Positions 2,428 to 63,201 of a stretch of 64,000 bases of DNA are shown here, in pieces (positions within the stretch are counted from its first letter, which is position 1; every line of letters starts with the position of its first letter). The stretch is from Robiginitomaculum sp. Lineage in GTDB: Bacteria > Pseudomonadota > Alphaproteobacteria > Caulobacterales > Maricaulaceae. Where the stretch lies: NCBI GenBank assembly GCA_026982415.1, contig JALSHE010000050.1:1-64000 (forward strand), in the 5' to 3' direction. The notes beneath the pieces are model-generated. The model ran no database searches. It was not told the origin of the DNA and saw nothing but the letters and a program-made list of their open reading frames with translations. A program made the translations under genes and the position numbers.

Positions 2428-3237
2428 CTAGCTGATAATGAAATCACCTGGTCGGTAGCCTGGGTCCGGATATGCCGGGTTCATGCTTTCCAGTTTCTGC
2501 CTAACGATATTTGTGATGATAGCGTTTCTTACGCTCCGGTTGTCCGATGGGATGATGTGCCAAGGTGCGCGGGTCGTGGATGTGCGTTTGACCATAATCT
2601 CGTAAGCTTTCATGAATTTTGGCCATAGCAGGCGGTCTTCCAGGTCGCCCGGATTAAACTTCCAGTATTTATGGGGTTCCTCCAACCGTTCGGCCAGTCT
2701 TTGGCCTTGAGTGTCAAAGGACATATTGAGCATGAATTTCAGAATAGTCGTGCCGTTCTCGCGCAGATGTTGTTCAAAGTCATTGATCTGGCGGTAGCGT
2801 TTATTCACGGCCTTTGTGGGTGCGAATTTACGGACTTTAACCACCAAAACATCCTCATAATGGGAGCGGTTAAACACGGTGATTTGACCCTTGCCGGGGC
2901 AGACATTATGGACGCGCCATAGATAATCCTGGGACAGTTCGCGCTTGCTCGGGGCTTTGAAGCTGGCCACATGCAGATTAAGCGGCGGGGTGCGGGAGAA
3001 TATGGCGCTGGTGGTGCCGTCTTTGCCGCTGGTGTCCATGCCTTGCAAAACAATCAGCAGGGATTTTTTATTTTGGGCGTAAAGCTTGTGGGATAAATCC
3101 GCGATCAGTTTTGCATCGCTTTTAATGCTGGCTTTGGCCGCTTTTTTGTCCGCAAATATATCCACTCGTGTTGGTCTATTGGCCAGTTTAAACTTGGTCT
3201 TGGCGTGGGCTATATAGTCTTTGGGATCAATAATCAT
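2428..3237 (-). CDS. PPK2-family polyphosphate kinase
   Basis: A 269-residue polyphosphate:nucleotide phosphotransferase of family PF03976. Visible motifs are the Walker A loop GMDTSGKDG (about residues 66-74), the following lid region with FNRSHYEDVLVVKV, and the C-terminal APWHIIPSDNR segment typical of the family. These cytosolic enzymes use polyphosphate to phosphorylate nucleoside mono- or diphosphates. Length is normal for a single-domain PPK2. It diverges from the YceI operon at 3411, separated by 173 bp. Which nucleotides it uses cannot be decided by eye. Confidence 0.92.
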   Translation of the reverse strand: MIIDPKDYIAHAKTKFKLANRPTRVDIFADKKAAKASIKSDAKLIADLSHKLYAQNKKSLLIVLQGMDTSGKDGTTSAIFSRTPPLNLHVASFKAPSKRELSQDYLWRVHNVCPGKGQITVFNRSHYEDVLVVKVRKFAPTKAVNKRYRQINDFEQHLRENGTTILKFMLNMSFDTQGQRLAERLEEPHKYWKFNPGDLEDRLLWPKFMKAYEIMVKRTSTTRAPWHIIPSDNRSVRNAIITNIVRQKLESMNPAYPDPGYRPGDFIIS

Positions 3238-3410
3238 GTGCGACTTTCTTATCTGTTATCAGTATAATATGCCTCTATATACCTGCAAAGGAAAGCCCTA
3301 AGCTGGGCTATGGACGTAGGTAACTTTATAGCATCACACTAATGTGACATGCCGGGGCTAGGCACCGTGCGTGTAATTTGCTAGTAAGGGCATAGATATA
3401 GGAGATATTT

Positions 3411-4073
3411 ATGAAAAAGACTCTCGTTAATTTTGCTTTGGGTATCGCATTGCTCGGCGCAACCGCTTGTTCGAAAACAAGTTCTGCTCACGAGAGCGCC
3501 AAGTCGCACCCCAATGAAGCCCACGAAATGGCGCCAAGCTATAAAGCTATTGGTGTGCCGTCCGGCACCTATACTATGGATAAAACCCATGGTTATGTGA
3601 CATTCTCCTATTCCCATTTTGGTTTCTCCAATCCGCAGCTTCGGTTCCGCGATATTGATGCGGTGCTGGGCTTTGATGCGGACAAACCAGAAACCAGCAA
3701 TTTAACCGTCATGATTGACGCGAAAAGTATCGACAGTGGTGTGGATGTATTTGATGAGCATCTTAACAGCCCCGACTGGTTTGATACGGACAAACACGGC
3801 GAAATCACCTTTAAAAGCACGAATTTTACCCGTGCTAGTGCCACTACGGGCACGATGAGCGGTGATTTGACTATTATGGGCATCACCAAGCCGCTTACAT
3901 TAGACGTGACATTGTTGGTCGCCAAACCCCACCCGTTCAAAAAAGTGCCCGCCATTGGTATTGAAGCACGCGGCACGCTCAAGCGCTCCGATTTCGGGCT
4001 GGGCAAATATGCGCCGGGTGTTAGCGACCAGGTTGACTTGTTGATCAGCTCGGAATTTCTCAAAGACAAATAA
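3411..4073 (+). CDS. YceI-family lipoprotein
   Basis: A 220-residue YceI protein with a lipoprotein signal (ATAC, Cys20) and a spacer rich in Ser, His and Glu before the domain. The domain opens with GTYTMDKTHGYVTFSYSHFG and has the typical MIDAKSIDSGVDVFDEHL and NFTRASATTGTMSGDLTIMG stretches; YceI proteins are lipocalin-like barrels that bind polyisoprenoids or quinones in the periplasm. It is the first gene of a three-gene operon, with GGAG 6 nt before the ATG. It is followed after 14 nt by cytochrome b561 and then a second YceI lipoprotein. Confidence 0.9.
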   Translation: MKKTLVNFALGIALLGATACSKTSSAHESAKSHPNEAHEMAPSYKAIGVPSGTYTMDKTHGYVTFSYSHFGFSNPQLRFRDIDAVLGFDADKPETSNLTVMIDAKSIDSGVDVFDEHLNSPDWFDTDKHGEITFKSTNFTRASATTGTMSGDLTIMGITKPLTLDVTLLVAKPHPFKKVPAIGIEARGTLKRSDFGLGKYAPGVSDQVDLLISSEFLKDK

Positions 4074-4087
4074 TGCTGGGGTAAATT

Positions 4088-4669
4088 ATGGCGGATAGTA
4101 AGTCTTATAACAAGGTAGCGGTTAGGCTTCATTGGGGCATTGGCGGGTTAATTGTCTTGCTGTTGGCGTTCGGATTTTTGATGGATAATGTCCCCAAAGA
4201 TAATCTGTCTTTGCGGGTTACAGTCTTTAACTGGCACAAAACTATTGGTTTGTTGATATTGGTTCTGTCTGTCTTCCGCCTTTTGTGGAAACTGACCCAT
4301 AAAGCACCTGCACCTCTGCCGGGTGTGAAGCCGTGGGAAAAGCTGGTCTCCAAAACCGTCCATGCTTTGTTTTATGTGTTTATGATCGGTATGCCACTTG
4401 TCGGCTGGGCAATGATTTCTACGTCGCGGTTCCCGTCGTACTTGTTTAACTGGGCGAAGTTGCGCATACCGGAAATGCCTTTTTGGCAAGGCTTGGATAA
4501 AGTTGCCAAAACAGAGGTTCACGAGTTTTTCGCAGAAACTCACGAATTGATGGCCTTTGCGGCAATCGCCTTGATTTTACTGCATGTGTTTGCGGCGCTG
4601 AAACACCACAAAGCTGGCAAAGACATTCTGGTGCGCATGATGCCAGGTTATACGCGGAAAACTGATTAA
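4088..4669 (+). CDS. Cytochrome b561 family membrane protein
   Basis: A 193-residue four-helix di-heme b561 protein (PF01292 type). Candidate heme-ligand histidines are His15 (RLHW), His50 (NWHKT), His92 (KTVHALF) and His152/His166 in the last helices. Family members move electrons between the quinone pool and periplasmic partners. The gene sits between two YceI lipoprotein genes: 14 nt after the first, and its TAA overlaps the ATG of the next by one base (TAATG). Translational coupling and a shared redox or quinone-related role are likely, as b561/YceI pairs recur in Proteobacteria. Confidence 0.92.
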   Translation: MADSKSYNKVAVRLHWGIGGLIVLLLAFGFLMDNVPKDNLSLRVTVFNWHKTIGLLILVLSVFRLLWKLTHKAPAPLPGVKPWEKLVSKTVHALFYVFMIGMPLVGWAMISTSRFPSYLFNWAKLRIPEMPFWQGLDKVAKTEVHEFFAETHELMAFAAIALILLHVFAALKHHKAGKDILVRMMPGYTRKTD

Positions 4670-5298
4670 TGAAGCGGTTGAGTGTTTTTATTGGGTTTGT
4701 GAGCCTAGTGGCGTGCAGCAATGCCAATGGGCAGAACCCAAGTCAAACGGTTGTCGCAAATGTTACATCTGAGCAAATTATATCTGGTGAACAGACAAAA
4801 TCCGGCTGGACTGTGGACAAAACCAAATCCACGCTTGGGTTTTCTGGCAAGCAGAGCGGCGCAGCATTCACCGGCTCGTTTGGCGACTTTGAGGCGAGCA
4901 TCAATTTCGATCCTGACAATGTGGCGGTTGCGAATGTTGCCGTAACCATTATTATGAGCAGTGCCACTACCGACGATAGCGAGAGCACGAACGCATTGCC
5001 CGGCGAAGAGTGGTTTGATGTCAAAAAATTCCCTGTTGCCAAGTTTGAAGCTTCTGATTTTAAACATCTGCAAGATGACAAATATGAAGCCAAGGGAAAT
5101 TTGACCATACGGAATATCACCCAGGAAATTGTCCTGCCGTTCAAATTAAAGATTGAAAACAAACGCGCTATCATGGATGCGCAACTCAGCTTGGACCGCA
5201 CCGCCTATAAAGTCGGGACCGGAATGTGGGCAAGTAAAGACTGGGTCGAGCATGATATTGTTGTCGATATTCATCTTGAGGCAACGCAAAAAAAATAG
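4669..5298 (+). CDS. Second YceI-family lipoprotein
   Basis: A 209-residue YceI protein with lipobox LVAC (Cys16) and a linker of about 40 residues, then the domain starting SGWTVDKTKSTLGFSGKQSG. It has the family stretches EEWFDVKKFPVAKFEASDF and KGNLTIRNIT, and KDWVEHDIVVDI at the end. It is clearly divergent from the first YceI gene of the operon, so it is not a recent copy. Its start codon overlaps the b561 stop. Probably periplasmic, facing the b561 protein; ligand unknown. Confidence 0.9.
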   Translation: MKRLSVFIGFVSLVACSNANGQNPSQTVVANVTSEQIISGEQTKSGWTVDKTKSTLGFSGKQSGAAFTGSFGDFEASINFDPDNVAVANVAVTIIMSSATTDDSESTNALPGEEWFDVKKFPVAKFEASDFKHLQDDKYEAKGNLTIRNITQEIVLPFKLKIENKRAIMDAQLSLDRTAYKVGTGMWASKDWVEHDIVVDIHLEATQKK

Positions 5299-5302
5299 TT
5301 TT

Positions 5303-5310
5303 TTAACCAT
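5303..5310 (+). promoter_or_regulatory. TTAACCAT motif, possible CtrA half-site
   Basis: TTAACCAT lies 74 bp upstream of the Tad-domain gene at 5384. The same 8-mer lies before cpaB (18015-18022) and in the region before nrdB (12176-12183). It resembles the CtrA half-site TTAACCAT/TTAA described for Caulobacter; function here is inference. Confidence 0.35.
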
Positions 5311-5383
5311 TTCTTCAAACAAAAAATAATAACTTTCCCCCTATGATTTACCGCATGAAGTAGAGTTTTGTGTGGGGTCAGTT

Positions 5384-6760
5384 ATGGGGCTGAAAAATAA
5401 TATTGGGCAATTAGCGCAGAAATATCGTGCGGATGCGCAGGGGCAATTTGCTGTAATTTCAGCACTTATTGGTTTGCCGCTTTTGCTGGTTGGGGCGGCT
5501 GCCGTTGATATTAACCGGGTTCATAGCCAGAATTCAGGTGTGGGTGCGGCAATAGACGCTGCGGCTTTGGCAGCGGTTATTCCCGATAATATGTCTACAA
5601 CCGAGCGTTATGCTTACGCTCAAAGTGTTTTTGACAGAAATTATATTGGGCGCGATGCCGTGTCTCTGGACATATCTGGAGGCCGTGAACGTGTTGATAT
5701 AGTCGCAACTTCTCAGGTGCCGACCACCATAAGTGGTATTTTGGGTATTGATTATATTAATGTGGTCGAAGAGACTGCCGCAGTGCTTACCCGTTCGGAT
5801 ATAATCTGCGTCTTGGCTTTGGACCCGAGTGGTGAGCGGGCAATCGAGTTTTCTGATCGCGCCGCTTTTAATGCCCCGGCTTGTTCAGTACAAGTGAACT
5901 CTACAAGCCCCTTTGCTATGGTTTCGGGCGTCGTTACGCCGCCGAAAGCAAAATCGTTCTGTGTAGCTGGTATAGCGCAAGGGGATTATAACCCGTATGT
6001 GAAAAATGCATGTACGCCTATCGCAGATCCTTACGCAAATCTTCCCGTGCCTGTAGATGGGGCGTGTGTGGATGTTTCAACCTTACGGCGGGTAACGGGT
6101 AGAGGTATGGGTAGAGGTATGGGTAGAGGTATGGGTAGAGGTATGGGTAGAGGTATGGGTAGAGGTATGGGCAGGGGCCTAGGTTTGGGCCGAGGGGGAG
6201 GCACCGAAGACATCATCGAAGATAATACGGTTATGCGCCCGGGAACTTATTGCAATGGCTTAGATATTAGAGGGCGCAATGTTACGTTCCCGCCCGGGAC
6301 ATATATTGTTAAAGGCGGTAAATTCCGGGTGCGTGAACAATCTGAAGTGGATGGTCAGGACGTAACTTTCGTGTTAAAAGGTGAGGGTGCCAGCCTGTCT
6401 ATTGAGAGCGATTCACAGCTTAGTTTAAAAGCGCCTATGACAGGTACATATGCTGGGCTGGTGTTTTACCAGATACCGGAAAACCCGGCGGTGGGCAGAA
6501 AGCCAGATTTTCCAACAGATACCAGCACAATAACATCAGGCGGTGGCTTATCCATTGTCGGGACGGCATATTTCCCCAGCCAAGAATTGTCCATTTCCAG
6601 CGATAGCCCCGTTGCGTCGCAATCGCCCGCAACTTCGTTTATTGCTTATCGTCTGAAGTTTTCAGGAAGAAGCAATACTCAAGTCCGTGTAGATCATGAA
6701 ACTGGCGGTATACCGCCGCTGTTACCGAGGTCTGATGATGGCGCGCGTCTGGTTAAGTAG
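5384..6760 (+). CDS. Tad-domain (TadG-like) pilus-associated protein with GRGM repeats
   Basis: A 458-residue exported protein. The N-terminus (DAQGQFAVISALIGLPLLLVG, then AAVDINRVHSQNSGVGAAIDAAALAA) is the putative Flp pilus-assembly (Tad, PF13400-type) segment that anchors TadG-like proteins. The middle (about residues 238-265) is six GRGM tetrapeptides plus degenerate copies. The C-terminal part (CNGLDIRGRNVTFPPGTYIVKGG, VDGQDVTFVLKGEGASL) looks like a beta-helix-rich surface domain. ATG 5384 is preferred over GTG 5372 because GGGG lies 6 nt before it. It is not in the main tad locus 10 kb away but probably serves the same machine. No von Willebrand domain seen. Confidence 0.75.
   Translation: MGLKNNIGQLAQKYRADAQGQFAVISALIGLPLLLVGAAAVDINRVHSQNSGVGAAIDAAALAAVIPDNMSTTERYAYAQSVFDRNYIGRDAVSLDISGGRERVDIVATSQVPTTISGILGIDYINVVEETAAVLTRSDIICVLALDPSGERAIEFSDRAAFNAPACSVQVNSTSPFAMVSGVVTPPKAKSFCVAGIAQGDYNPYVKNACTPIADPYANLPVPVDGACVDVSTLRRVTGRGMGRGMGRGMGRGMGRGMGRGMGRGLGLGRGGGTEDIIEDNTVMRPGTYCNGLDIRGRNVTFPPGTYIVKGGKFRVREQSEVDGQDVTFVLKGEGASLSIESDSQLSLKAPMTGTYAGLVFYQIPENPAVGRKPDFPTDTSTITSGGGLSIVGTAYFPSQELSISSDSPVASQSPATSFIAYRLKFSGRSNTQVRVDHETGGIPPLLPRSDDGARLVK
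6097..6180 (+). repeat. 12-bp tandem repeat (minisatellite) coding GRGM
   Basis: Six perfect copies of GGGTAGAGGTAT (6097-6168) are followed by one degenerate copy (6169-6180). The period is a multiple of 3, so copy-number change keeps the frame and only lengthens or shortens the Gly/Arg/Met linker. Confidence 0.97.
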
Positions 6761-58572: not shown

Positions 58573-58632
58573 AACACTTCTCTCCTTCCCCCATCAAAAA
58601 ATGGGGGGAGGAGAAATTAAGAACTTGTTACA

Positions 58633-59094
58633 TCAGCGCGGTGCGTTGGGGGCGGGGCAGGTAATGTCGAATGACGGCTTATTTGCCAGCGCATAGGTTT
58701 TCAGGTTTCCGATATGGGCCGCCATAGCCCCTGCATCATACATCATATTGACGCAGCCTAGCGTGTTTTTCGTATCCGCATCTACCATGGCTGCAAAGCC
58801 TGTGACGCCGTACCATTGATTGTATTGCGTTGCGATTTGGTGGTCAAAAGCGATATGGGCACTGCGTTCAATGCGCCCGCTATCGGTAACATCAATAACC
58901 ACGACTTTGATTGAAGGGTCATTTAGTTGTTTAAGGGCGCGGTTAAGGTTTGGCTCGACAATTTTACAAGGCGCGCACCAGTCGGCACGAAATATCACCA
59001 CATACATTTCTGGTGGCTGTTGCGCATGAGCGGCGGAACCAATGCCCAAGATTAGGAATAAGGGCAGGAAAAAATATTTAATCAAATGTGTCAT
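58633..59094 (-). CDS. Secreted thioredoxin-like protein A
   Basis: A 153-residue exported thioredoxin-fold protein: signal peptide (cut after AAHA, about residue 24), then VVIFRADWCAPCKIVEPNL with Cys40 and Cys43. The later GVTGFAAMVDAD segment lies where thioredoxins have the cis-Pro (usually G-x-P-T), but no Pro is present. Two more Cys occur in TLGCVN and TCPAP, also kept in the paralogue at 59253. Probably periplasmic. It has its own transcript, as a terminator separates it from the paralogue. Partner proteins unknown. Confidence 0.82.
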   Translation of the reverse strand: MTHLIKYFFLPLFLILGIGSAAHAQQPPEMYVVIFRADWCAPCKIVEPNLNRALKQLNDPSIKVVVIDVTDSGRIERSAHIAFDHQIATQYNQWYGVTGFAAMVDADTKNTLGCVNMMYDAGAMAAHIGNLKTYALANKPSFDITCPAPNAPR

Positions 59095-59187
59095 TACTCA
59101 CCTATAGCTGTGCCAAAAAGTCTGCGCATCTGACTTATACAGCTTAATATGTAAAATATTCGTGATGTAAATACGGGGAATGCGGGC

Positions 59188-59218
59188 AAAAAAATAGGCT
59201 CGGCGAACCGAACCTATT
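59188..59218 (-). terminator. Rho-independent terminator after the thioredoxin-like gene B
   Basis: On the minus strand AATAGGTTCGG and CCGAGCCTATT form an 11-bp stem with one mismatch and a TTCG tetraloop, followed by a T-run (59188-59194). Confidence 0.88.
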
Positions 59219-59252
59219 GTTTTGTATTTACGGGAGTAATTATTTGCCAAAA

Positions 59253-59726
59253 TTATTGACCGGGATCAACATTATGGGCTGCTGGGCAACGGAATTGCGC
59301 TGAACGGTTGGAAACCGCTTGATCGTGCGGCAGGCCAGCGGCTGCTTTAATAAAGTTGGCTGATTTAAATAGGTCTGCATTGTCAGTGAGACAACCAAGT
59401 GTGCGGCCACTTTGACGGTCAATTACAGCCGTAAAACCAGTGAGGCCAGCCCATTTATTGTACTGTTTAGTGATATTGCGGTCAAATGCAGTATGGGCAG
59501 AAACTTCCCATTTCAGTGCATTTGATGTGTCGATAGTCACAAGCTCTACCTTTGAGCTGCGCACCATATTCATAGCGTTGTCCAATTTGTTTTCCATGAC
59601 GGCACAATTTGCACAATCATCGGCGCGGAATTTGACGACATATATGTCAGGGCGTTCAGATGCAGTTGCTGTGGCAGCGGTTACACATAATACTGCCGTA
59701 CCCAAAATAGCGGTAAATTTTTTCAT
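59253..59726 (-). CDS. Secreted thioredoxin-like protein B
   Basis: A 157-residue paralogue of the protein at 58633. Signal peptide to about residue 22, then VVKFRADDCANCAVMENKL with Cys38 and Cys41 (the usual Trp before the first Cys is Asp). GLTGFTAVIDRQSGRTLGC has Thr where the cis-Pro would be, and a C-terminal FRCPAAHN repeats the CPA of the paralogue. ATG 59726 is chosen because it starts the signal peptide. A perfect TTGAT-ACAC-ATCAA box lies 56 bp upstream, so induction under low oxygen or nitric oxide is plausible. Confidence 0.82.
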   Translation of the reverse strand: MKKFTAILGTAVLCVTAATATASERPDIYVVKFRADDCANCAVMENKLDNAMNMVRSSKVELVTIDTSNALKWEVSAHTAFDRNITKQYNKWAGLTGFTAVIDRQSGRTLGCLTDNADLFKSANFIKAAAGLPHDQAVSNRSAQFRCPAAHNVDPGQ

Positions 59727-59781: not shown

Positions 59782-59795
59782 TTGATACACATCAA
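59782..59795 (-). promoter_or_regulatory. FNR/FixK-type box TTGAT-ACAC-ATCAA
   Basis: A perfect match to the FNR/FixK/Anr consensus TTGAT-N4-ATCAA. The centre is 62 bp before the ATG of the thioredoxin-like gene B, which fits activation from about -41.5 with a short leader. Could equally serve in repression. Confidence 0.7.
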
Positions 59796-59903
59796 TGGTT
59801 ATTTTTTGGCAAATGTGTCGCTAACCCTTCATTTACCAAAGAGCGGAATGTCATTAAAAAAATGGCTAAGTACTGCAAAAAACCTAAGAAATTTTAGGAA
59901 AAC

Positions 59904-62718: not shown

Positions 62719-63201
62719 CTATTCAGATTTCATCTCTTCAATTTTTGCCGATTCGGCTGGCTTGGCGCGGTCCCATTTCTCGCTGTCACAAATGCCTGCG
62801 CAGCCTTTGATTTTCAGGACATCACCCTCGACGGTGACGGTGCCCTTGAACGTCATGAATTTCGGCATCTCTGGATGCTTCATTTTCTTGCCTTTCCAAG
62901 CATCACCCTCGGCCATCATGCCGTGGCACATTTCGAAATCCTTTTTGGGCTTGCCGCTTTTCTTGGTGCGGTTGATGATTGTGCAATACATGGCGCCGTC
63001 TTTAAACGATACGCGTACATCTTGGCCTTTTTTCCTGCGCACCCACATGCCCTCAGGGCCAGCGGCTTTGGCAAGTGTTGCTTCATTAGTGATTTCTTCC
63101 GCGAGATTATCAGTCTTGGTTGATTGTTCCTGGGCATTCGCCGCAGTCACGCCTAAGCTCAGTGCCAAAGCCGTCACAAAGAACATTTTTTTCATGTACA
63201 T
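62719..63201 (-). CDS. DUF2147-type secreted protein
   Basis: A 160-residue exported protein: signal peptide ending TAANAQE (about residue 23), then a DUF2147-like domain (PF09917) with GPEGMWVRRKKGQDVRVSFKDG, Cys pairs (YCTII, EMCHGM) and a C-terminal GDVLKIKGCAGICDSEKWDRA. DUF2147 proteins are lipocalin-like periplasmic or surface proteins of unknown role. GGAGG lies 7 nt before ATG 63201. Followed by its own terminator. Confidence 0.82.
   Translation of the reverse strand: MYMKKMFFVTALALSLGVTAANAQEQSTKTDNLAEEITNEATLAKAAGPEGMWVRRKKGQDVRVSFKDGAMYCTIINRTKKSGKPKKDFEMCHGMMAEGDAWKGKKMKHPEMPKFMTFKGTVTVEGDVLKIKGCAGICDSEKWDRAKPAESAKIEEMKSE

Follow-up and report, generated by a model that had tools for sequence, protein, structure and literature searches.

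Redox-inactive thioredoxin-fold domains exist, such as the b domains of PDI. In the classical thioredoxin, a cis-proline stands before the fourth strand, and the loop that holds it has been termed a universal lock of thioredoxin-fold catalysis (PMC13269488). Thioredoxin of E. coli carrying the substitution Pro76Ala still folds, with a trans bond, and its activity is about 100-fold lower (PMC4485320), while the substitution P151T impairs the turnover of DsbA (PMC13269488). The conserved cis-proline has also been proposed to keep metals off the CxxC motif (Su 2007, as cited in PMC2757866). In this study, we analyzed a pair of adjacent genes, A and B, in a stretch of 64,000 nucleotides (the window) from Robiginitomaculum sp., a marine alphaproteobacterium of the Robiginitomaculum/Hellea group. 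Unlike the classical thioredoxin, the two products have Ala101 (A) and Thr99 (B) at the place of the cis-proline. The genes and the features that delimit them are as follows.

58633..59094, reverse strand: gene A, a secreted thioredoxin-fold protein of 153 aa with CAPC and four Cys, its cis-Pro site occupied by Ala
59023..59094, reverse strand: signal peptide of A, residues 1-24, ending in AHA before Q, from the sequence and the low pLDDT at the N terminus
59193..59218, reverse strand: terminator-like hairpin between B and A
59253..59726, reverse strand: gene B, a secreted thioredoxin-fold paralogue of 157 aa with CANC and four mature Cys, its cis-Pro site occupied by Thr
59658..59726, reverse strand: signal peptide of B, about residues 1-23, from the sequence

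The preliminary description of this DNA had proposed a pair of secreted thioredoxin-like paralogues, and this is borne out: both reading frames are in place and carry signal peptides, a thioredoxin fold is predicted for each, and the proteins share 37% identity across 134 residues. The start codon of B is the ATG at 59726; the listed TTG start lies 12 codons too early. Both signal peptides read as Sec-type, and a further cysteine of B, Cys14, falls within the h-region of its signal peptide, where no lipobox is present. The best explanation takes A and B to be a pair of soluble proteins of the envelope, with a thioredoxin fold, that descend from one duplication; the signal peptides would argue against either being a classical cytosolic thioredoxin. 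Downstream of A, a strong hairpin at 58580-58619 of the window (CTCC..CCCCCAT/ATGGGGGG..GGAG) separates A from a convergent DUF1476 gene and is possibly a two-way terminator.

The pair lies between purB and the DUF1476 gene, beyond which follow purC, purS, purQ and purL, and most loci share the arrangement purB-B-A-DUF1476-purC. We considered a link to purine synthesis and rejected it, since the position is stable, yet several genomes of the taxonomic family that lack the pair keep purB and purC intact and in place. Two such loci (L085 and L086, in genomes G050 and G057) have neither the pair nor DUF1476 between purB and purC. A search with B gave matches in 52 of 99 relatives at E 0.01, most of the strong ones being the tandem pair, and in other genera related genes of two kinds, type I or type II, often occupy the same place. 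In an even, class-wide sample of 289 genomes, the profile of the pair found only 4 matches at 1e-5. A profile of the wider group gave full-length matches in few genomes across the phylum, and the rest were mostly partial matches around the CxxC.

AlphaFold predicts a thioredoxin fold for A (pLDDT 87.9, pTM 0.79) and for B (pLDDT 83.8, pTM 0.76), and by model and sequence the CxxC of both window proteins sits at the helix start after the first strand, a motif that 27 relatives of B lack. The nearest solved folds in Foldseek were TlpA, thioredoxin and ResA; the TlpA/ResA matches were the best and are weak (TM 0.43, 18% identity). Assignment to the Pfam thioredoxin family PF00085 held for A (35.7 bits, above the gathering cut-off of 23.5) and failed for B (18.6 bits), which was above the cut-off of no Pfam model and for which a sequence search found no solved relatives. 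Together with the fold matches, the score of A would suit an ordinary periplasmic thioredoxin or a TlpA/ResA-like reductase fed by a DsbD-type membrane protein, and elsewhere the genome does have a DsbD-type transmembrane gene and a Sco gene, one of each. We nevertheless consider such a reductase unlikely: the Pfam match spans only the CxxC half of A, no NCBIfam cut-off was reached, those of the TlpA/ResA/CcmG equivalogs included (TlpA 21 versus 230 bits, ResA 14.9 versus 170), and the cis-proline is absent from all members.

This absence, also claimed in the preliminary description, was confirmed by structure prediction, which places the site at the following codons together with the motif table of relatives.

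58792..58794, reverse strand: Ala101 of A, cis-Pro site
59430..59432, reverse strand: Thr99 of B, cis-Pro site

In the model of A, F100-A101 opens the fourth strand (100-105), which is the cis-Pro place of thioredoxin. Neither window protein has a proline elsewhere that could fill the position; A is free of proline from residue 61 to 139 and B from residue 27 to 132. The proline in the LPGFA motif of B proteins without a CxxC was also rejected as a cis-proline, as it sits at T98, three residues ahead of the site in a gapless alignment. Among orthologues the site is Ala in every A and Thr, Val or Ala in B, and a residue other than proline occupies it in every family member of the motif table, and likewise in the outgroup genes. 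The family loop reads Thr-Gly-Phe/Leu/Met-(Ala/Val/Thr/Met/Leu) in place of the thioredoxin Gly-Ile-cisPro-Thr. Judged from these alignments, loss of the cis-proline characterizes a broader family, mainly of Caulobacterales and usually found beside purB, and is not peculiar to A and B. A thioredoxin-like protein with the TGF loop and no cis-proline also occurs in another class of the phylum, between yidC-like and mnmE-like genes (L112, 1306-1923, in G384). The family thus supplies natural CxxC proteins without the proline in many genera, material with which the roles of the cis-proline in catalysis, substrate choice and metal exclusion can be tested.

The cysteines, besides Cys14 of the B signal peptide, are at positions 40, 43, 114 and 146 in A and 38, 41, 112 and 147 in B.

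58966..58977, reverse strand: CxxC of A, C40-A-P-C43
58753..58755, reverse strand: Cys114 of A, in the last strand (111-115)
58657..58659, reverse strand: Cys146 of A, in the C-terminal tail (CPA)
59604..59615, reverse strand: CxxC of B, C38-A-N-C41, lost in 27 relatives
59391..59393, reverse strand: Cys112 of B, in the last strand
59286..59288, reverse strand: Cys147 of B, in the C-terminal tail (CPA)

A CxxC in each protein (CAPC and CANC) and two further cysteines had been noted at the outset, and this reading stands. In a motif table of about 90 relatives, all four are invariant in true A orthologues, save in incomplete rows where the gene end is missing. The added proposal that the four cysteines act together is not supported, because the CxxC and the second pair have been lost independently. 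In B, all four cysteines are present in 16 proteins (the window genus and g18) and only the extra pair in 27 (Hellea, Litorimonas and allies), with no intermediate pattern in the motif table. Type I relatives have four cysteines; type II relatives have the CxxC and lack both extra cysteines. In the tree, type II lies on one side of a branch (99/92). Two automatic labels of the tree, L035_A and L015_A, look like exceptions owing to truncated gene ends. The two pairs are thus separable, an independence that rests on two evolutionary events.

This pattern bears on two further explanations. The CxxC thiolates may bind a metal or an Fe-S cluster, alone, between two subunits or with C114 and C146, and the proposal that a cis-proline prevents metal binding by the CxxC (Su 2007 in PMC2757866) lends this some appeal where the site residue is Thr in B and Ala in A. 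His80 is conserved. We regard a metal protein as improbable all the same, for 27 B orthologues dropped the CxxC pair and kept the other two cysteines, type II proteins do without the extra pair, and no metal gene adjoins the pair in the window or the mapped loci. Conservation and loss of all four cysteines as one unit, as expected of a four-cysteine metal or Fe-S thioredoxin-like protein, was not seen. Equally, C114-C146 could be a second redox-active disulfide exchanging electrons with the CxxC in a two-step relay. The invariance of both pairs in A is consistent with this; we think it improbable too, given that C112 and C147 remain unchanged, under strong purifying selection, in B proteins without a CxxC. 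Since these B proteins keep the extra pair and type II proteins keep the CxxC alone, the comparison favors a structural disulfide between C114 and C146 over a four-cysteine metal site. A disulfide running along the edge of the sheet would suit the AlphaFold model of A, where C114 belongs to the final strand and C146 to the tail that follows the last helix. This bond (C112-C147 in B) would pin the tail to the edge strand.

Loss of the CxxC did not turn B into a decaying gene. B forms a single clade in the tree (100/100), within which the loss is one event (support 100/99). All 27 proteins that lack the motif have Ser at the second Cys and Pro at T98, and the motifs AHxxFD, NxW, GFAA, GC and CP are fixed among them. 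In the pairs of such proteins that we compared, dN was 0.02-0.16 and dS ranged from about 0.7 to saturated, and in 13 of 13 pairs the dN of B was below that of A. Because dN is low where dS is about 0.7 or more, the genes are not decaying; A and B are under strong purifying selection, B more than A. The transition from a CxxC-bearing to a CxxC-less paralogue can be followed here with both states extant at the same gene position and Ser fixed at the second Cys.

How the two proteins may work can be sketched from these results. The loop of A would contain a trans peptide bond, making A a natural counterpart of engineered Pro76Ala thioredoxin, and for that reason A would be a poor general thioredoxin, acting through C40 and C43 on one or a few envelope substrates. 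B would bind A or the same substrate while losing a redox role of its own, a loss completed in sister genera. A specialized rather than general role, as first suggested, is supported as probable. The overall explanation, a specialized oxidoreductase A with a structural C114-C146 disulfide and a diverging partner B, seems to us to have an even chance of being right. Rather doubtful is the proposal that the pair forms a two-protein unit, in which a trans-Ala CxxC partner is joined to a redox-dead, more strongly conserved tandem paralogue with a role in substrate selection or in regulating its active partner. In one locus (L026, in G007), A is present and B is missing; as A is kept there without B, it can work alone in that genome. 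No genomic link of A to a known substrate was found, and neighbors in odd loci (L075, L042 and L064) were discarded as hints because the genes are unrelated. In L042, a molybdenum hydroxylase-like pair (large and iron-sulfur subunits; 3104-5753) lies on the other strand between B and A, both paralogues being kept, and L016 / L076 (G030) carries three tandem copies, two B and one A, relocated across the purine genes. Elsewhere in the window, 62719-63201 encodes a secreted protein of 160 aa that is DUF2147-like by eye, although a Pfam search up to E 1 gave no match; a weak partial NCBIfam match to the Shiga toxin B subunit (13 versus 165 bits) was dismissed as chance.

The region upstream of B contains three elements.

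59782..59795, forward strand: FNR-like palindrome TTGATACACATCAA, which varies among relatives
59794..59802, reverse strand: conserved block ATAACCATT
59820..59837, reverse strand: conserved element GGTAAATGAAGGGTTAGC, unique in the genome at <=2 mismatches

Reading toward B, GTAAATGAAGnGTTA is followed by ATAACCATT, which starts 34 bases further on, and the two (59794-59837) are conserved in 12 aligned members of the genus, with 1-2 mismatches in a few. In G007, where B is missing, the B promoter element persists 193 bases upstream of A. Control of a low-oxygen type had also been suggested for the pair. TTGATACACATCAA occurs as a single exact copy in the window, where 0.14 would be expected, and the genome encodes, elsewhere, an FNR-like regulator with an N-terminal Cys that scores below the NCBIfam cut-offs. 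The box is exact in the window species only, the closest relative having TTGGCGTGTATTAA and others TTGCAGTGTATCAA, and the 5 exact copies genome-wide are near chance (about 2.6 expected, 2.73 Mb / 4^10). Because the box is exact in the window species only, low-oxygen control is unsupported.

Set against known systems, A resembles thioredoxins of PF00085 in its fold and in a WCxPC where the first long helix begins, whereas A and B differ from them in lacking the cis-proline, in being secreted and in having two extra cysteines and a C-terminal tail. With TlpA and ResA the pair shares export and the thioredoxin fold; unlike them, A and B lack the cis-proline, show no membrane anchor and are not flanked by genes for cytochrome c or CuA. 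Like the periplasmic protein pTFP of Stenotrophomonas (PMC13217887), compared here by features, A combines a periplasmic thioredoxin fold with CAPC and a restricted distribution, but the link of pTFP to MntR and a TonB receptor has no parallel at A and B, where neither is seen. The engineered E. coli thioredoxin Pro76Ala (Trx0P, PMC4485320) matches A in having Ala at the cis-Pro position alongside a CxxC, whereas in A the Ala is natural and fixed and the trans bond is only inferred. Relatives of B without a CxxC keep the fold, as PDI b-type domains do; unlike those domains, B is a secreted protein in its own right, next to a paralogue that bears the CxxC, and a single loss is placed on a tree.
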